From contig NZ_JALIDZ010000001.1 in assembly GCF_025397915.1 (NCBI RefSeq), positions 1-64,000 of the forward strand: a DNA stretch of 64,000 nucleotides. Direction: 5' to 3'. Position 1 is the stretch's first letter. Each line of letters starts with the position of its first letter. The notes under the pieces were generated by a model. It saw nothing but the letters and a program-made list of their open reading frames with translations. It made no database searches and had not been told where the DNA came from. Origin of the DNA: Microbaculum marinisediminis (GTDB lineage Bacteria; Pseudomonadota; Alphaproteobacteria; Rhizobiales; Tepidamorphaceae). Shown here piece by piece: positions 34,936-43,629 of this stretch. Both the position numbers and the translations under genes were made by a program.

Positions 34936-36750
34936 TCACTCCGGCAGGCCGGCGGCGCGCATCAGATCGTGCATGCGGCGGCGATCGTCCGGCGAGCGGA
35001 TGAGTTCGAAGAAATTCCAGTGTTCAAGCCGGAAGGCGGGAAACCTCTCGGCCAGCCGCGCCGCCACGCGCGCGGCCTCCTCGCGCCGGCCGAGCGCCCA
35101 ATACGCCGTCGCCGCCCAGCACAGCACGGGCGGGCCGACCGGGCCATGGCGCGCGATATTTTGCTCGAAGGACGCAACGGCACCTTCGTAGTCCTGCCCG
35201 ATCGCCTTGATCACGCAGCGCAGGTTCAGATACGGCCCGTTGACGAACTGCGGATTGAGCCGAAGCGCCTGATCGATCGGATCCACGCCGAGCTCGGGAT
35301 GGCCGGACAGGGCCAGGAAGAAGGCCCGGTAGGCATGGGTGTCGGCATCGTTCGGCTGGAGGGCGTGGGCCTTGTCGATCGCGATCATCGCCTCGTCGTG
35401 GCGCCCCTGCAGCAACAGCGCCTGGGCAAGCGCCACGTAGGACCAGCCAAAGCTGTCGTCGCATTCGACCGCCTTGCGGGCCAGCGCCTCGGCGCGGGCC
35501 GCGGTTTCGGCCATGTCGACATGGCCGAAAATGGCGGAGAATCCGAGCATCCAGGAGACCCCGGCGTATCCACCGGCATAGTCCGGGGCCATCTCCATGA
35601 CCTGCTCGAACATCTCCCGGGCGGCGTTGATGCGCTCGGGAATCGGGGGAAACGGCGTCGCCTTGGCGCGGACATAGAGCTCGTAGGCATCCAGGTTGTG
35701 GGTGTGGACCCGGTGCAGGCGTTCGGTCTCGTCGCCCCGCAACCGCACCGACAGGGCCGAGACCACCTTGGCGCCAACGTCGTCCTGCAGCTCGAAGACG
35801 TTGTCGACGCTGCCGTCGTACCGCTCGGCCCAGAGATGGCCGCCGCTGAGCGCGTCGATCAGCTGCACGTTGATACGGACATGCGCGCCGGCCTTGCGCA
35901 CGCTGCCTTCCACCACGTAGCGCACCCCCAGCCGCTGCGCCGCCTCGCGGATATCCACCGACTTGCCCTTGAACACGAACGAGGAATTGCGCGCCACCAC
36001 GAACAGGCCCGAGACCTTGGACAGGTCGGTGATCAGGTCCTCGGTCATGCCGTCAGCGAAATACTCCTGTTCCGGATCGCCCGACATGTTGTCGAAGGGC
36101 AGCACCGCGACCGACGGCTTCGACGGCAGTTCGAGCGGCTCGGCGCCATTCGGCGCCGGGGCCAATACGGGGGTCGGCGCAGGGGCCGGCCCGGAGCTCG
36201 GCCCAAGGGCCGCAGGTTGCCCGCGATGGTCCCGCCAGCGCCAGATCCGGATCGGCCTGGCGATGTTCTTGGCCTCGTGCTCGCCGCCGTCTTCCCACGC
36301 GACCTCGAGGCGGTCGCGGACCTGCCGGTAGGCATCGTCCGACAGGCTGATGCCGCCGGGCTCCGACAGGGGCTCGATGCGCGCGGCGATGTTGACGCCG
36401 TTGCCGAAGATATCGTCGCCCTCGATGATGATGTCGCCGACATGCACGCCGACCCGAAGGCGGATGGCCCGGTCGTCGGCGACGCCCTGGTTGCGCGCGG
36501 CGAGCCCCTGCTGGACGGCGATGGCGCACTCCACGGCGGCGACGACCGAGGGAAACTCCAAGAGCAAACCGTCGCCCGTCGTCTTGACGATGCGGCCGCC
36601 GTGCCTGCCGATCATGGGATCGACGAGTTCGGACCGACAGGCGCGCAGCGCGGCGAGCGTGCCGATCTCGTCCGCCCCCATCAGACGCGAATAGCCGACC
36701 ACATCGGCCGCCACGATCGCTGCCAGCCTGCGTTGCGTTTCCTCCGCCAT
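34936..36750 (-). CDS. class III adenylate/guanylate cyclase with TPR domain (copy 1)
   Basis: A 604-residue cytoplasmic protein. An N-terminal CHD cyclase domain (1-175) keeps the metal aspartates D16 and D60, K56 and the transition-state pair N120/R124, so it should be active. A proline-rich linker (about 180-210), a TolB-like region (SVAVLPFDNMSGDPEQEYFADGMTEDL... near 215-320) and TPR repeats (about 355-590) follow. This architecture is greatly expanded in rhizobia. cAMP is the likely product. A second, diverged copy sits upstream on the same strand. Confidence 0.9.
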   Translation of the reverse strand: MAEETQRRLAAIVAADVVGYSRLMGADEIGTLAALRACRSELVDPMIGRHGGRIVKTTGDGLLLEFPSVVAAVECAIAVQQGLAARNQGVADDRAIRLRVGVHVGDIIIEGDDIFGNGVNIAARIEPLSEPGGISLSDDAYRQVRDRLEVAWEDGGEHEAKNIARPIRIWRWRDHRGQPAALGPSSGPAPAPTPVLAPAPNGAEPLELPSKPSVAVLPFDNMSGDPEQEYFADGMTEDLITDLSKVSGLFVVARNSSFVFKGKSVDIREAAQRLGVRYVVEGSVRKAGAHVRINVQLIDALSGGHLWAERYDGSVDNVFELQDDVGAKVVSALSVRLRGDETERLHRVHTHNLDAYELYVRAKATPFPPIPERINAAREMFEQVMEMAPDYAGGYAGVSWMLGFSAIFGHVDMAETAARAEALARKAVECDDSFGWSYVALAQALLLQGRHDEAMIAIDKAHALQPNDADTHAYRAFFLALSGHPELGVDPIDQALRLNPQFVNGPYLNLRCVIKAIGQDYEGAVASFEQNIARHGPVGPPVLCWAATAYWALGRREEAARVAARLAERFPAFRLEHWNFFELIRSPDDRRRMHDLMRAAGLPE

Positions 36751-36866
36751 GGCGGAAGTTTACCGGCGCAGCATCCAGGAATCCACGCGTAACGTGGCGG
36801 CCGGAGCGCTGCCGCGAACACGGCGCCCCCGGGCGCCGCCGACAGGCCGGACCGAGGCACGGCGCC

Positions 36867-38597
36867 CTAGTCCTCCAGACCCGCCTTTCGCAGGCCGTCG
36901 AGCAGAAGATCCATATCCGCCTCGCGCCGGTACGCGACGATGGCGCGCGCCTTCGACAGCGAAAAATCCGGACTGATCCGACGGACCTCGGCCAGCGCCT
37001 CGTGGGCGCGCCCGGTCTCGCCGAGCTGGCCGCAGGCGGCGGCGAGAAAGAACTGGGAGGGCAGCGACTCCGGATTGTGCGCCACGGCCCGCGCGATCAT
37101 TTCCACGGCTTCGCCGAAGCGGCGCATGGTGAACAGGGACTGGCCGACATAGAGCGTGTAGTAGAAGGGATAATAGGGGTTGAGCCGCTTGGCCTTCTCG
37201 ATCAGCCCGGCGACCCGTTCGGGCTGGCCGCCGAAGTGCAACACGCCGGCAAGCCCGGCGTAGGCTTCGGCATTGCCGGGCTCGACCTCGACCCAGCGCA
37301 CGGCATCGGCGATCGCCGCGTCGTGCCGCCTCTTGAAGAGATGGACGGAACTGAGCGCCTCGTAGACCAGCGGCAGCGTCGGATCGAGGTCCCTGGCTTT
37401 CCGCGCCAGCTCCTCGGCCCGGTCGAGCGCGCCGGGAACGCCCATGAACCACTCGTGCAGATAGGTCTCGGCCAGGGCCGCGTGCGCCGCGGCGTAGCCC
37501 GGGTCGAGCGCGATCGCCCTGTCGTAGAGCGTGCGGGCGGCGAGATTTCCGTCCCTCGAGAAGCGCCGATACTGCTCGCGCCCGCGAAGCAGGCAGTCAT
37601 AGGCCTCGGCGACGGTCGTTTCGACGCGGGGCGGCATCGCCCCGGCGAGCCGGACCTCGAGGCTGCGCACGATCCTGTCCGTGACATCGTCCTGGACGGC
37701 GAAGATATCGTCGAGGCCGCGGTCGTAGCGCTCGGCCCACAGATGCCCGCCCGACGCGCCGTCGATGAGCTGCGCGGTGATCCTCACGCGGTCGCCCGCC
37801 TTGCGGACGCTGCCCTCCAGCACGTAGCGGACACCGAGATCGCGGCACACGTCCTGGATCTTCACCGCCTTGCCCTTGTAGGTGAAGGTCGAGTTGCGCG
37901 CGATGACCGTCAGCCCGGCGATCTTCGAGATCTCGGTGATGATGTCCTCGGTGATGCCGTCGGCGAAATACGCCTGCTCGCTGTCGCCGCTCATGTTGTC
38001 GAAGGGCAGGACCGCGATGGACGGCCTGGCGTCGACCGGCGGCGCCGAACCCTCGGCGGCAACGGCCGCGGCCGGGCGGACGCGGCCGGGATGCCACTGC
38101 CAGACCCGCAGGGGACGATCGATGTTCTTCAGGTCGCGGGGGCCCAGGTCCTCGAAGGCCAGGTCCGTACGGTCGCGCACCTGGTCGTGGACGGCATCGG
38201 AGATGCACAGCCCGCCCGGCGGCGCGAGGCTTTCCAGACGCGCGGCGACGTTGACCCCGTCGCCATGGATGTCGTCGCCGTCGACCACCACGTCGCCGAG
38301 ATTGACCCCGCAACGCAGCGCGATACGCCGATCGGCCGGCAGCGCGGCGTTGTTCTCGGCCAGGCGGGCCTGAATCGCCGCGGCGGCGCGCACGGCGCCG
38401 ACGGCACTGGCGAACTCGGCCAGGATGCCGTCGCCCATCAGCTTGACGACGCGGCCGCCGAATTCACCGAAGGCGGGATCGACGACCTCCGTCCGCAAGG
38501 CCTTGAACGCCACAAGGACAGCCTCCTCGTCGGCCCGGACCAGCCGCGAGTAGCCGACGACATCGGCGGCGAAGATGGCGGCGAGACGGCGTTGCAT
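36867..38597 (-). CDS. class III adenylate/guanylate cyclase with TPR domain (copy 2)
   Basis: A 576-residue protein with the same layout as its neighbour: CHD cyclase domain (1-170) with D12, D56, K52 and N116/R120, TolB-like segment starting SIAVLPFDNMSGDSEQAYFADG, then TPR repeats. The paralogues differ throughout, especially in the TPR part, so this is an old duplication. Its 5' end and upstream DNA have a decayed copy at 41493-41577. Separated by 116 bp from copy 1, which may be cotranscribed. Confidence 0.9.
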   Translation of the reverse strand: MQRRLAAIFAADVVGYSRLVRADEEAVLVAFKALRTEVVDPAFGEFGGRVVKLMGDGILAEFASAVGAVRAAAAIQARLAENNAALPADRRIALRCGVNLGDVVVDGDDIHGDGVNVAARLESLAPPGGLCISDAVHDQVRDRTDLAFEDLGPRDLKNIDRPLRVWQWHPGRVRPAAAVAAEGSAPPVDARPSIAVLPFDNMSGDSEQAYFADGITEDIITEISKIAGLTVIARNSTFTYKGKAVKIQDVCRDLGVRYVLEGSVRKAGDRVRITAQLIDGASGGHLWAERYDRGLDDIFAVQDDVTDRIVRSLEVRLAGAMPPRVETTVAEAYDCLLRGREQYRRFSRDGNLAARTLYDRAIALDPGYAAAHAALAETYLHEWFMGVPGALDRAEELARKARDLDPTLPLVYEALSSVHLFKRRHDAAIADAVRWVEVEPGNAEAYAGLAGVLHFGGQPERVAGLIEKAKRLNPYYPFYYTLYVGQSLFTMRRFGEAVEMIARAVAHNPESLPSQFFLAAACGQLGETGRAHEALAEVRRISPDFSLSKARAIVAYRREADMDLLLDGLRKAGLED

Positions 38598-38639
38598 CGG
38601 CTCCCTCCGCGGCGAAGCCTAGAGCCGAAGCACGACAAT

Positions 38640-38661
38640 AGCCATCGATTGCAGAGGCCGC
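38640..38661. repeat. 22-bp direct repeat, copy 1
   Basis: A 22-bp sequence beginning AGCCATCGATTGCAGAGG, located 43 bp upstream of cyclase copy 2. It recurs identically at 41556-41577, beside the cyclase remnant, so it marks a duplication of the cyclase upstream region and is not an independent element. Confidence 0.85.
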
Positions 38662-38752
38662 AGGTCACCCAGACCCGATGGCCCCGCACGTGGCGGAAGG
38701 CGAGAAGGCCCGACGTGCGCCGCGCCATCCTGGTGACGCCGATCCCCGCAGG

Positions 38753-39604
38753 CTACGAACCGGCGGACTCGTTCGAAATGTCCTTGAGAAAATCCGCCCC
38801 GAATTCCGACTTTATGTAGTCATACTCAGGCTCGCAAACGGTCGCGATGTGCTTCTTGACCTTGTCGCTCAGAACGACCTTGCCTGACTTGGAATTGTTC
38901 TTATCTCTTATATTTTTGTATTCCATTTCATCAAGGCCGTATTTTATTTCAATATTACGCAAAATATCCTCTGGTCGAACAATTATATCCTTGAACGACA
39001 CGACGTTCACGCCCTTGAAATACTTCTTAAGAAGCGGAATGGACCGAGAATACTTTCCCCTGAGCACCTGCCCCGCATCAATGTGACCGATAATATCGTT
39101 GTCCTCAACGCTCTTACGCCTGCCCTGAACGCGCCGGACCCACATGCTTGTTCCTGAAATCATCCTCCTGACCGGATCCCTGACGATCAAGACCGGCTCG
39201 ATATCAGGCAGCAGTTTGGCCATATGCATGAAGCCGCGCTCCGGCATGGCCATATAGCTGGGAGAGGCCTCCATGAAGACGATATCGCCCCCCTTCCGCA
39301 TCAATTGCCTGTTCTTCGGCTTTTTCAGAAAAATATTCTTATACCACTCATCCGTATATGCATTATTCGGATCCAAAACATATTCTATGTAATCCTTGTA
39401 GGCCTTAGTCTTCCCTTCTGTACTGACCCATTGCCCCGACAATATTGTCTTTTTTCGCTTCTCAAATGAAAAATTCTTACGACACACCCTATCGAAATAG
39501 TGAATTTCCTTCTGGAAGGCAAATCCAACCCGAGGCTGCTGCTTGATCATAGAAAACAACCATGTGGTGCCGGCCTTTTGCGCGCCAACGATGACCAGAT
39601 CCAT
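38753..39604 (-). CDS. sulfotransferase-domain protein on a low-GC island
   Basis: A 283-residue PAPS-dependent sulfotransferase homologue: 5'-phosphosulfate loop GAQKAGTTWLF (residues 7-17) and 3'-phosphate-binding motif VRDPVRRMISG (141-151). It is probably cytoplasmic, transferring sulfate to a carbohydrate or lipid acceptor, possibly a surface polysaccharide. Base composition is far more AT-rich than the neighbours and Lys/Ile/Asn are abundant, indicating recent acquisition. Adjacent genes offer no PAPS or polysaccharide context. Confidence 0.82.
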   Translation of the reverse strand: MDLVIVGAQKAGTTWLFSMIKQQPRVGFAFQKEIHYFDRVCRKNFSFEKRKKTILSGQWVSTEGKTKAYKDYIEYVLDPNNAYTDEWYKNIFLKKPKNRQLMRKGGDIVFMEASPSYMAMPERGFMHMAKLLPDIEPVLIVRDPVRRMISGTSMWVRRVQGRRKSVEDNDIIGHIDAGQVLRGKYSRSIPLLKKYFKGVNVVSFKDIIVRPEDILRNIEIKYGLDEMEYKNIRDKNNSKSGKVVLSDKVKKHIATVCEPEYDYIKSEFGADFLKDISNESAGS

Positions 39605-40062: not shown

Positions 40063-41478
40063 ATGGCCCATGCGATTGCCCCGGAGCTCATCGCCCGGTT
40101 CGCGGCACTCGTCGGCGACAGATACGCCATCACCGACACGCACGAGATCGAGCCCTATCAGCGCGAGCGCCGCGACCTCTATCGCGGGCGCGCGCCGCTG
40201 GTGCTGCGGCCCGGCTCGGTCGCGGAGGTCTCGGCGATCCTGGCGCTCGCCAGCGAAACCGGCACCGCGGTCGTGCCGCAGGGCGGCAATACCGGGCTGG
40301 TCGGCGGACAGATCGCGCATGACGGCGAAATCGTGCTGTCGCTGTCGCGGCTGAACGCCATCCGCTCGGTCGATCCGGACAACGACACGATGACGGTCGA
40401 GGCCGGCGTCGTGCTCGACGACATCCACAAGGCGGCCGACTCGGCGGACCGGCTGTTCCCCTTGAGCCTCGGCTCGGAGGGCTCGTGCCAGATCGGCGGC
40501 AACCTGTCGACGAATGCCGGCGGAACCGCCGTACTGGCCTACGGCAACACCCGCGACCTGGTGCTCGGGCTCGAGGTGGTTCTCGCCGACGGGCGCGTGT
40601 GGAACGGGCTCAGGAGCCTTCGCAAGGACAATACCGGCTACGACCTGAAGGACCTGTTCGTCGGCGCCGAAGGCACGCTCGGTATCGTCACCGCGGCGGT
40701 GCTCAAGCTGTTCCCCAAGCCACGCGAGATGGCGACCGCGTTCGCCGCCGTCGCGAGCCCCGCCGCCGCGCTGGCGCTGTTCGCCACGGCGCGGGCCAAG
40801 GCCGGCACGCAGCTGACCGCCTGCGAGATCCTGCCGCGCGTCGGGCTCGACTTCGTGCTGCGCCACGCCGAGGGCTCCCGCGACCCGATGGCCGAGCCCC
40901 ATCCCTGGTACGTGCTGCTGGAACTGTCCTCGCCGCTGAAGGGCGCGGATGTCGACGCGATGATGCAGGCGATCCTGGAGGACGCCTTCGAGGCCGGCAC
41001 GGTGCGCGACGCGGCCGTGGCAGCGTCCGTCGCGCAGGCCGAGGCGTTCTGGCAGATCCGGCTGATGCTGTCGGAGGTGCAGCGCAAGGAAGGCGGCTCG
41101 ATCAAGAACGACGTCTCGGTGCCGGTCGGCATGGTGCCGGAGATGCTGGAGCGCGGCATCACCACCGTCAGCGCGATGATCCCCGGCGTGCGGCCCGTGC
41201 CCTTCGGCCATATCGGCGACGGCAACCTGCACTTCAACTTCTCGCAGCCCGAGGACATGGCGCGCGACGACTTCATGGCGCAATGGGGCGCGGTCACCGA
41301 CGCGATCGACGACATCGTGCTGGCGCTGAACGGCTCGATCTCGGCGGAGCACGGCATCGGCTTCATGAAGCGGAACCTGATGGAGCACATCAAGGACCCG
41401 GTCGAGCTGGAGATGATGCGCGCCATCAAGGCGACGCTCGATCCCAAGGGCATCCTCAATCCGGGCAAGGTCGTGTAG
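40063..41478 (+). CDS. FAD-linked oxidase (D-2-hydroxyacid/glycolate dehydrogenase family)
   Basis: A 471-residue VAO-family flavoprotein: PP-loop FAD-binding domain (VVPQGGNTGLVGGQ near 71-84, GSEGSCQIGGNLSTNAGGT near 135-153, GAEGTLGIVT) and C-terminal FAD-oxidase domain with the HIGDGNLHFN metal motif and the ending DPKGILNPGKVV. Homologues oxidise D-2-hydroxyglutarate, D-lactate or glycolate and pass electrons to the quinone pool or ETF. Start is ATG 40063. The last ~70 bp plus trailer are duplicated at 43081-43178. Confidence 0.9.
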   Translation: MAHAIAPELIARFAALVGDRYAITDTHEIEPYQRERRDLYRGRAPLVLRPGSVAEVSAILALASETGTAVVPQGGNTGLVGGQIAHDGEIVLSLSRLNAIRSVDPDNDTMTVEAGVVLDDIHKAADSADRLFPLSLGSEGSCQIGGNLSTNAGGTAVLAYGNTRDLVLGLEVVLADGRVWNGLRSLRKDNTGYDLKDLFVGAEGTLGIVTAAVLKLFPKPREMATAFAAVASPAAALALFATARAKAGTQLTACEILPRVGLDFVLRHAEGSRDPMAEPHPWYVLLELSSPLKGADVDAMMQAILEDAFEAGTVRDAAVAASVAQAEAFWQIRLMLSEVQRKEGGSIKNDVSVPVGMVPEMLERGITTVSAMIPGVRPVPFGHIGDGNLHFNFSQPEDMARDDFMAQWGAVTDAIDDIVLALNGSISAEHGIGFMKRNLMEHIKDPVELEMMRAIKATLDPKGILNPGKVV

Positions 41479-41498
41479 AAGCGCCGGCTTCTCCGCCG
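41415..41498 (+). repeat. 3' end of the FAD oxidase gene, direct-repeat copy A
   Basis: This 84-bp stretch covers the last codons, the stop and about 20 bp of trailer of the oxidase gene. It matches 43081-43178 (98 bp), with perfect identity in the outer blocks and a short insertion plus substitutions in the middle. The two copies flank the flavocytochrome gene. Confidence 0.85.
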
Positions 41499-41577
41499 AA
41501 TTCGCCCAACGCGGGCTCGACGACATCGGCGGCGAAGATGACCGGAGGGGACGAAAGCCATCGATTGCAGAGGCCGC
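41493..41577 (-). pseudogene. decayed remnant of a class III cyclase gene 5' end
   Basis: Read leftward this encodes VIFAADVV joined to EPALGEFGG, the start of the cyclase domain of copy 2 (IFAADVV...VDPAFGEFGG) with 25 codons missing. In copy 2 the missing 75 bp lie exactly between two CGACGAC repeats (38480-38486 and 38555-38561), so the deletion is explained by slippage between them. The 23-bp block at 41518-41540 and the 22-bp upstream block at 41556-41577 are identical to copy 2. The start codon region is also deleted. Not functional. Confidence 0.8.
41556..41577. repeat. 22-bp direct repeat, copy 2
   Basis: Identical to 38640-38661. Here it lies beside the cyclase remnant, only about 17 bp from the residual coding sequence compared with 63 bp in the intact gene, showing a second deletion that removed the start codon. 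Confidence 0.85.
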
Positions 41578-41710
41578 GATGCGCCTCCGGTTTGACCTGG
41601 AACAAACCACGCCACCGGTTTTTCTGGTTTTGTAGCCACGCGGGCGGCTTTAAAGATTGCAGGATCATGCCCAGTGGTCCGGCGGTCGAAATCGAGACAG
41701 GTCGACGACA

Positions 41711-43054
41711 GTGAAAGCCATATCCCGCGTGTTCTGGGGCGCCCTGGCGCTCCTCATCGTTCTTTGGACGGCGTTCAACCTCCAGATATTCCAGGCACGG
41801 GGCTTCTTCGCCCTGCGCAGCGACATGGTGCAGCTCACCGGCATCCTCGCCGTCGCCGCCATGAGCTTCGCCATGGTGCTGGCGCTGAGGCCGCGCTGGC
41901 CGGAAGCCCGGTTCGGCGGCCTCGACAAGATGTACCGCCTGCACAAGTGGTTCGGCATCGCCGCGCTCGTCCTCGCGGTCGTCCACTGGCTCTGGGCCAA
42001 GGGACCGAAATGGGCGGTGGGATACGGCCTGCTGTCGCGGCCGGAACGCGGGCCGCGCCCGGAAATCACCAATCCGCTGGAACAGCTCCTGTCGAGCCAG
42101 CGCGGCACGGCGGAGGGCCTCGGCGAATGGGCCTTCTACGCGGCGGTGCTGCTGATCGTGCTGGCGCTCGTTCCGCGATTTCCCTACCGCCAGTTCTACA
42201 AGACCCACAAACTCATCGCGATCGCCTACCTGGTGCTGGTGTTCCACTCGGTCGTGCTGGTGCAGTTCTCTCACTGGACCACGCCGATCGGGATCGTGGT
42301 GGCGCTGCTTCTGATCCCGGGAACCTATGCGGCGCTCGTCGCGCTGACCGGCCGGATCGGCGCCGGCCGCCAGGTGCACGGCACGATCTGCCTGTTGCGC
42401 CGCTATCCCGGCGTACGCGCCCTGGAATCGGAAATCGCCATGGAACCGGGATGGCCGGGCCACAAGACCGGCCAGTTCGCCTTCGCCACGTCGGACGCGC
42501 ACGAGGGCGCGCATCCCTACACCATCGCATCGGCCTGGGATCCGGCCGACCCGCGCATCACCTTCGTCACCAAGGCGCTCGGCGACCACACCAGCCTTCT
42601 GGCCGACAAGCTCAGCATCGGCCAGAGGGTGAAGGTCGAAGGTCCCTACGGCTGCTTCACCTTCGACGACGACCGGCCGAGGCAGATCTGGGTCGGCGGC
42701 GGCATCGGCATCACGCCGTTCATCTCCCGGATGAAGTATCTCGCGCGGGCGGAAACGGACCGCCGTGGCCAGGTCGTCGACCTCTTCCACACCACGGCGG
42801 ACGTGGACGAGGACGCCCTGGCGCGGCTGGCGGAAGACGCCAAGGCCGCCGACGTTCGACTGCACATCCTGGTGGACGCGCGGCACGGCCGGCTCAGCGG
42901 CGCGCGCATTCGCGAGGCCGTGCCGGACTGGCGCGAGGCGAGCATCTGGTTCTGCGGGCCGACCGGCTTCGGCAAGGCGCTGCGAACGGACCTGGCCGCC
43001 CACGGGTTCGACGTGGAGGCCCGGTTCCATCAGGAGCTGTTCTCGATGCGGTGA
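41711..43054 (+). CDS. ferric-reductase-like flavocytochrome b oxidoreductase
   Basis: A 447-residue membrane oxidoreductase of the FRE/NOX superfamily. Six membrane helices (about 1-225) carry the haem-ligand histidine pairs (LHKWFGIAALVLAVVHW and THKLIAIAYLVLVFHS). The FAD domain (HPYTIAS near 285) and NAD(P) domain (VGGGIGITPFISR near 335, WFCGPTGFGKAL near 415) follow. It passes electrons from NAD(P)H across the membrane to an unknown acceptor (iron, oxygen or a periplasmic protein). The GTG at 41711 is the best start. The gene is bracketed by duplicated oxidase-gene ends, suggesting insertion as a unit. Confidence 0.85.
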   Translation: MKAISRVFWGALALLIVLWTAFNLQIFQARGFFALRSDMVQLTGILAVAAMSFAMVLALRPRWPEARFGGLDKMYRLHKWFGIAALVLAVVHWLWAKGPKWAVGYGLLSRPERGPRPEITNPLEQLLSSQRGTAEGLGEWAFYAAVLLIVLALVPRFPYRQFYKTHKLIAIAYLVLVFHSVVLVQFSHWTTPIGIVVALLLIPGTYAALVALTGRIGAGRQVHGTICLLRRYPGVRALESEIAMEPGWPGHKTGQFAFATSDAHEGAHPYTIASAWDPADPRITFVTKALGDHTSLLADKLSIGQRVKVEGPYGCFTFDDDRPRQIWVGGGIGITPFISRMKYLARAETDRRGQVVDLFHTTADVDEDALARLAEDAKAADVRLHILVDARHGRLSGARIREAVPDWREASIWFCGPTGFGKALRTDLAAHGFDVEARFHQELFSMR

Positions 43055-43080
43055 TCGGGGACGCGGGTCGGACCGGAGCC

Positions 43081-43178
43081 GATGCGCGCCATCAAGACCG
43101 ACGCTCGCCCCCGATGCCCAATCCGAAGGGCATTCTCAATCCGGGCTAGGTCGTGTAGAAGCGCCGGCTTCTCCGCCG
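43081..43178 (+). pseudogene. duplicated 3' end of an FAD oxidase gene (copy B)
   Basis: A 98-bp copy of the end of the oxidase gene at 41415-41498, including the trailer. It encodes ...NPKGILNPG and then a TAG where copy A reads AAG, and it has about 14 extra bases centrally, so it may derive from a related oxidase gene and not be an exact duplicate. It begins 27 bp after the flavocytochrome stop and ends just before the ribosome site of the GNAT gene. Confidence 0.82.
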
Positions 43179-43191
43179 TCAGGAGGCGCCC

Positions 43192-43629
43192 ATGCCCAAG
43201 CTCACCGTCACCGAAATCACCAACGCCGATGTCGAGGCCGTGGCCGACCTGTGGGCGCGCTGCGGCCTGACCCGGCCGTGGAACGATCCGCACACCGACA
43301 TCGCCTTCGCCCGCGCGGCGCCGAGCGCCACGATCCTCGTCGGCCGCGCCGACGGGGCCATCGCCGCCAGCGCCATGGTCGGCCACGACGGCCACCGCGG
43401 CACCGTCTACTACGTCTGCGTCGATCCGCGACGCCAGGGCAGCGGGCTCGGCCGCGAGATCATGGCCGCAGCCGAGGACTGGCTGCGCGGCCAGGGCGTG
43501 TGGAAGCTCAACCTGATGGTGCGCACCGACAACACCAAGGTGATCGATTTCTACACATCGGTCGGCTACGACGTCGAGGAACGGGTCAACATGGCGAAAT
43601 GGCTCGATCCGGCGAAGAAACCTGCGTGA
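43192..43629 (+). CDS. GNAT acetyltransferase (YpeA-like)
   Basis: A 145-residue GNAT protein. The acetyl-CoA binding motif (YYVCVDPRRQGSGLGREIM, about 73-91) and the terminal DFYTSVGYDVEERV helix-strand match the YpeA branch. Acceptor unknown. An AGGAGG ribosome site precedes the ATG at 43192. The DNA immediately before it is the duplicated oxidase end. Confidence 0.88.
   Translation: MPKLTVTEITNADVEAVADLWARCGLTRPWNDPHTDIAFARAAPSATILVGRADGAIAASAMVGHDGHRGTVYYVCVDPRRQGSGLGREIMAAAEDWLRGQGVWKLNLMVRTDNTKVIDFYTSVGYDVEERVNMAKWLDPAKKPA

Follow-up and report, generated by a model that had tools for sequence, protein, structure and literature searches.

In the SNAP model of Brandis and Hughes (2020, PMC7055797), as outlined by its authors, new gene orders arise in bacterial chromosomes when a segment is duplicated and genes are then lost from different copies. 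The segments they describe range from tens of kilobases to more than 1 megabase, form via recombination between repetitive sequences, and are kept by selection; the authors suggest seeking pseudogenes that have matching active copies. The articles listed for duplication, loss, and gene order are the SNAP papers, studies of mitochondria, and a few others that merely use the terms; small bacterial examples may well have been described before. Here, we analyze a locus in a 64,000-nucleotide stretch of the Microbaculum marinisediminis genome (hereafter, the window), where a gene for a NOX/ferric-reductase-like flavocytochrome b sits between the genes for a FAD-linked oxidase and a GNAT acetyltransferase. 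The segment carrying the flavocytochrome gene probably represents the worn remains of a small local tandem duplication followed by losses, which would have altered the local gene order. This reading is built on comparisons of DNA and protein sequences.

The repeated oxidase end and the cyclase remnant

The oxidase gene is intact (40063-41478, plus strand; Pfam FAD_binding_4 and FAD-oxidase_C), and its product is GlcD-like, yet far under the NCBIfam GlcD cutoff. A first-pass annotation of the window had reported that the end of this gene (41415-41498) recurs beyond the flavocytochrome gene as a dead fragment (43081-43178). The two copies are real, but their extent is longer than was proposed. 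Gapped homology runs from 41390 to 41498 (copy A, plus strand, i.e., the intact oxidase-gene end and its trailer) and from 43055 to 43178 (copy B, plus strand, a non-functional second copy of the oxidase-gene end with its trailer), so that copy B starts 26 bases earlier, immediately 3′ of the flavocytochrome stop codon (43052-43054). Of the 109 aligned columns, 91 are identical, and the local alignment score is 75, as compared to a maximum of 41 for 1949 random pairs of stretches from this GC-rich window. An ungapped core of 67 nt (41432-41498 versus 43112-43178) is 91% identical. The 26-nt string GTGTAGAAGCGCCGGCTTCTCCGCCG is the same in both copies, which are its only sites in the window with up to three mismatches allowed, and shuffled versions of the string found none. 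Copy B bears a 13-14 nt insertion near 43108-43121, two 1-nt insertions, and a TAG at 43147-43149; because of these insertions and the early TAG, it cannot encode an oxidase end, as the annotation had stated.

The origin of copy B appears to be local. The annotation had proposed to search for a separate parent oxidase gene, and none was found in this genome: the strong matches of copy B are itself and copy A, and the next match has an E-value of 0.05. More generally, the best genome matches of the two scraps described in this section are the local cyclase gene cyc2 and the adjacent oxidase gene. The C13 paralogue, another oxidase gene of the genome, was considered as the parent of copy B and rejected: this paralogue matches copy A (E 1.8e-8) and is absent among the matches listed for copy B. 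Apart from these copies, direct repeats of at least 60 nt within 12 kb in the window are confined to the pair of cyclase paralogues and a Gly-rich repeat.

The left end of the segment holds the second scrap, a cyclase remnant that the annotation had correctly recognized. It spans 41493-41577 (minus strand) and aligns in the same orientation to 38455-38661 (minus strand), which comprises the 5′ end of, and the sequence just upstream of, cyc2, a class III adenylate/guanylate cyclase-TPR gene (36867-38597, minus strand; Pfam Guanylate_cyc and TPR). With long deletions allowed, 76 of 85 columns are identical, and the chain score for 41499-41577 reaches 40.6, whereas none of 4862 control windows exceeds 19.0. 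Aligned with cyc2, the 85-bp remnant scores 46.6, compared with 17.5 for cyc2 of the same-genus relative G001 and 14.0 for cyc1, the second local cyclase gene. A 22-mer from the upstream region, AGCCATCGATTGCAGAGGCCGC, has two sites in the 5.1 Mb genome, both as expected, even with three mismatches, while its reversed control has none. Two internal deletions separate the remnant from its source: the first falls between 7-bp CGACGAC direct repeats, and the second lies near a shared GCGGCGAAG, where the deletion ends are uncertain.

The trailer of copy A passes straight into the copied 5′ end of cyc2 at CCGCCG (41493-41498, plus strand), a 6-bp microhomology common to both parents and the presumed duplication junction; at least 6 bp are shared at the joint in 745 of 200,000 random position pairs. 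The end of one unit is thus joined directly to the start of another, in direct orientation. On the right, copy B adjoins the native flank, i.e., the leader (TCAGGAGG...) and gene of the GNAT acetyltransferase (43179-43629, plus strand; Pfam Acetyltransf_1, and above the cutoff of NCBIfam NF002959), with a leader that matches G001. This is the signature of a tandem duplication: one unit end runs directly into a unit start, and the other unit end runs into the native flank.

The empty site in related genomes

We compared eight genomes of the family, including this one; the seven others comprise two of the same genus and five further family members. In five of the seven (G001, G002, G003, G004, and G006), the GNAT match starts 5-37 bases past the oxidase match, which is the oxidase-then-GNAT empty site that the annotation had predicted. 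The listed completeness is 85% for G001, 86% for G002, and 74% for G003, which leaves some doubt as to whether the flavocytochrome gene is missing from their other parts, while the empty junctions themselves are observed. The other two genomes do not have an empty site: in G005, oxidase and GNAT are separated by 934 bases with another open frame, and in G007, the GNAT gene lies on a different contig. The frame in G005 (L089:8449-9363) encodes a hydrophobic product of 304 residues and fills the oxidase-GNAT gap, an independent gain at the same junction. The flavocytochrome was found in none of the seven family genomes: G001 has no match, and the others have weak matches to the reductase domain only, with the haem domain uncovered. 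Likewise, a repeated oxidase tail 3′ of the oxidase gene is clear of the null in none of the seven (scores of 16-22 versus nulls of 17.5-22, with 73 for the window).

G001, whose oxidase protein is 80% identical, offers the closest view of the undisturbed junction. Its spacer GTGTAGAAACGCGCGCTTCCGTTTCGTCAGGAGGCGCACCATG corresponds to GTGTAGAAGCGCCGGCTTCTCCGCCGTCAGGAGGCGCCCATG in copy B and continues as copy B does, TCAGGAGGCGC..CCATG. From this match, it follows that copy B retains the native link to GNAT and copy A the native link to the oxidase, and that the stretch between them was gained. G001 also has a cyc2 orthologue to the left of the oxidase gene, 81% identical over the 149 amino acids that precede the contig end; cyc2 therefore belongs natively to this neighbourhood, and the remnant has a local source. 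The site between cyc2 and the oxidase gene is variable, since it holds a zinc metallopeptidase gene in G001 (Pfam Peptidase_Mx, L082) and a sulfotransferase gene of 47% GC here. The sulfotransferase has no match in L082, and no trace of the G001-type metallopeptidase was found in the window, the best hit (E 0.98) lying away from this site.

A probable duplication with loss and the alternatives

The observations above are best accommodated by the following sequence of events. After the split from G001, a stretch reaching from within the 5′ end of cyc2 to the oxidase trailer, ~3 kb in present coordinates, would have been duplicated in tandem. The new joint at CCGCCG brings the oxidase trailer next to codons near the cyc2 start, and may have formed by template switching or microhomology-mediated joining. 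In the second unit, small deletions, at least one of them between short direct repeats, appear to have cut the cyclase 5′ end to its 85-bp scrap, and the oxidase gene seems to have been lost save for its last ~90 bp and the trailer. The middle of this unit is now an intact flavocytochrome gene (41711-43054). Either this gene already lay between cyc2 and the oxidase gene and survived solely in the second unit, so that complementary loss would have created the new order, or it arrived later, in a second unit that was already redundant. In both cases, two genes that are adjacent in five of seven relatives would end up with an apparently functional NAD(P)H-flavocytochrome b gene between them.

The first of these routes, in which the flavocytochrome gene was co-duplicated by microhomology and then kept only in the second unit, with the oxidase kept only in the first, is a tentative proposal that we regard as possible and somewhat doubtful. 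We looked for a trace of the flavocytochrome gene in the first unit. A lenient blastn search paired 38672-38775 with 42812-42912 at a nominal E-value of 1e-6, and the DNA score of 36 at 38672-38775 ranks at the top of 3084 control windows, the next being 35. The trace was set aside as unproven after control with the family profile, described below.

Several observations weigh against the tandem duplication or its details. The full duplicated state is present in no relative, so the duplication is deduced from its two ends. For 41578-41710, the first unit yields no credible counterpart, and the frameshift-tolerant family profile gives the putative flavocytochrome trace no support, with 1765 of 5594 control windows scoring at least as high. 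The divergence between copies A and B (18 of 109 columns) is about the same as that between copy A and G001 (18 of 107), while copy B and G001 differ at 27 of 107. Four-point sums from these difference counts are best for A with B against G001 with G006, at 43 versus 47 and 47, i.e., only 4 apart. With such similar divergences, the relative age of the duplication leans mostly on the common trailer and the empty site. The quartet may lend slight support to grouping A with B, and the argument is borne by the trailer, identical in A and B and different in G001, together with the empty sites. As for the assembly, the locus lies in the interior of a 648-kb contig of a 5.1 Mb genome that is 98.7% complete, and the copies have diverged, which makes misassembly unlikely.

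The annotation had explained the segment by homologous exchange between oxidase-gene ends. The part of this proposal that holds is a lineage-specific gain of a segment between oxidase and GNAT; the exchange itself is less well supported, because it leaves unexplained the copy of the cyclase 5′ end, derived from 3 kb upstream and fused to the trailer of copy A at a 6-bp microhomology. Tandem duplication fits better, since the cyclase and oxidase scraps, the order and orientation in which they lie, and the intact native GNAT leader are all expected from it. A close relative of the exchange is a Campbell-type single crossover, in which circular or imported DNA with a flavocytochrome gene and an oxidase end recombined at the resident oxidase gene; one of the two copies would then stem from the host and the other from the donor. 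Such an event would account for the flanking direct repeats, the insertion, and the empty site in relatives, and the flavocytochrome family seems mobile, with identical proteins in five sphingomonad records of different genera, which share stretches of 7.6-11.3 kb at 99.97-100% identity. However, the donor would also have to bear the upstream region of this genome's cyc2, which is found nowhere else in the genome. Moreover, the oxidase, both cyclases, and GNAT are all without a match in the 80 flavocytochrome loci retained out of 190, 63 of which have close to 5 kb on both sides and the rest less, and copy B lacks a separate oxidase parent in this genome. We therefore consider the crossover unlikely.

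Less probable still is homologous import from a sister strain ordered cyc2-flavocytochrome-oxidase, followed by unequal joining, which formally amounts to a tandem duplication between two haplotypes. It would leave the same anatomy as a tandem duplication, and the variability of the cyc2-oxidase site is in line with it, but no strain of this kind occurs among the two same-genus and five other family genomes. As to a transposable element or an integron-like cassette, a direct repeat bracketing an insert does recall target-site duplication. The repeat is diverged and ~109-124 bp long, however, and usual target duplications are far shorter. In addition, the eight other scanned open frames of at least 80 amino acids that overlap the segment match no Pfam family; of 31 inverted-repeat pairs, the 25 that were listed include none linking one end of the segment to the other; and the segment starts with a copied scrap of the native cyclase. 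An element of this sort is thus very improbable, and the annotation's view that the gain was not transposon-borne is upheld.

The flavocytochrome gene, its surroundings, and known systems

The flavocytochrome gene (41711-43054, plus strand, with a proposed GTG start; Pfam Ferric_reduct) looks intact on the evidence of its predicted protein. The haem histidines H78/H92 and H166/H179, two bis-His pairs, are each present in 81 of 81 rows of the family alignment, and the motifs HPYTIAS and GGGIGITPF are kept at each position in 77-81 and 67-81 of 81 rows, respectively; we take the bis-His pairs to be haem ligands and the two motifs to mark FAD and NAD(P)H binding. Residues 137-428 match PDB 8qt6 by sequence (E 2.8e-25), with the first 136 residues outside the match; this entry is presumably the bacterial NADPH oxidase SpNOX.

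A single scan of genome contigs gave 190 loci of related proteins, 80 of which were kept; 63 of these have close to 5 kb on both sides, and the rest have shorter flanks, the shortest locus totalling 3.3 kb. Judged by the families that the titles name, Alphaproteobacteria predominate; some Beta- and Gammaproteobacteria also occur, as does one Ignavibacteriota bin. The best relative is 69% identical over 408 columns, so there is no close donor among the kept loci. In the tree, the window protein falls beside four Hoeflea sequences (support 95/86) on an end branch of 0.31, versus a median of 0.12. Among the neighbours searched for in these loci, only the LysE-type gene of the window was matched, in one of 80. 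Within the same set, five sphingomonad records (L159-L163; Sphingobium, Novosphingobium, Sphingomonas, Sphingopyxis, and Rhizorhabdus) encode identical flavocytochrome proteins. Relative to L162, identity is 100% over 11.3 kb in L163, 100% over 9.0 kb in L159, 100% over 7.6 kb in L160, and 99.97% over 7.6 kb in L161, which may reflect a mobile block that was shared recently, or else contaminated or mislabelled records.

Around the locus, the sulfotransferase gene between cyc2 and the oxidase gene (38753-39604, minus strand; Pfam Sulfotransfer_3) is present in a single copy in the genome. Further to the left, 34936-38597 holds a pair of neighbouring cyclase-TPR genes that point the same way, with DNA 76% identical across 170 nt. 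Simple consensus scans of the gained segment found no promoter or terminator.

With respect to described enzymes, the flavocytochrome resembles SpNOX (PMC11031084) in its sequence match to 8qt6, its bis-His pairs, and its FAD and NAD motifs. Unlike SpNOX, it belongs with relatives that are mostly alphaproteobacterial, the nearest at no more than 69% identity. The locus leaves knowledge of the enzymes unchanged. Scraps of lost copies can mark tandem duplication-random loss (TDRL) events, and the pattern seen here, in which an intact gene lies between remnants of an upstream neighbour's 5′ end and of the preceding gene's 3′ end, can be searched for elsewhere. Worn examples in which both unit ends are legible would allow such events to be counted.

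The closest parallels are cases of duplication and loss. In the animal mitochondrial examples of TDRL, as described in PMC5745709 and PMC4223735, gene order was likewise altered by duplication and loss; here, in contrast, the setting is a bacterial chromosome, and the presence of the flavocytochrome gene in the unit before duplication is only a candidate. If it were true, the locus would be a small bacterial SNAP or TDRL event with both unit ends still readable, and a new gene threaded between oxidase and GNAT. The authors of the SNAP model call for further bioinformatic tests of the extent to which gene order in bacteria is shaped by differential loss after duplication (PMC7055797). In summary, the event is instructive but ordinary in kind: it would share with SNAP, in the form given in that paper, duplication, divergence, losses that strike different genes in each copy, and a rearranged order, and it differs in scale and joint, with a unit of ~3 kb and a 6-bp microhomology in place of the larger units and repeat recombination of the model.

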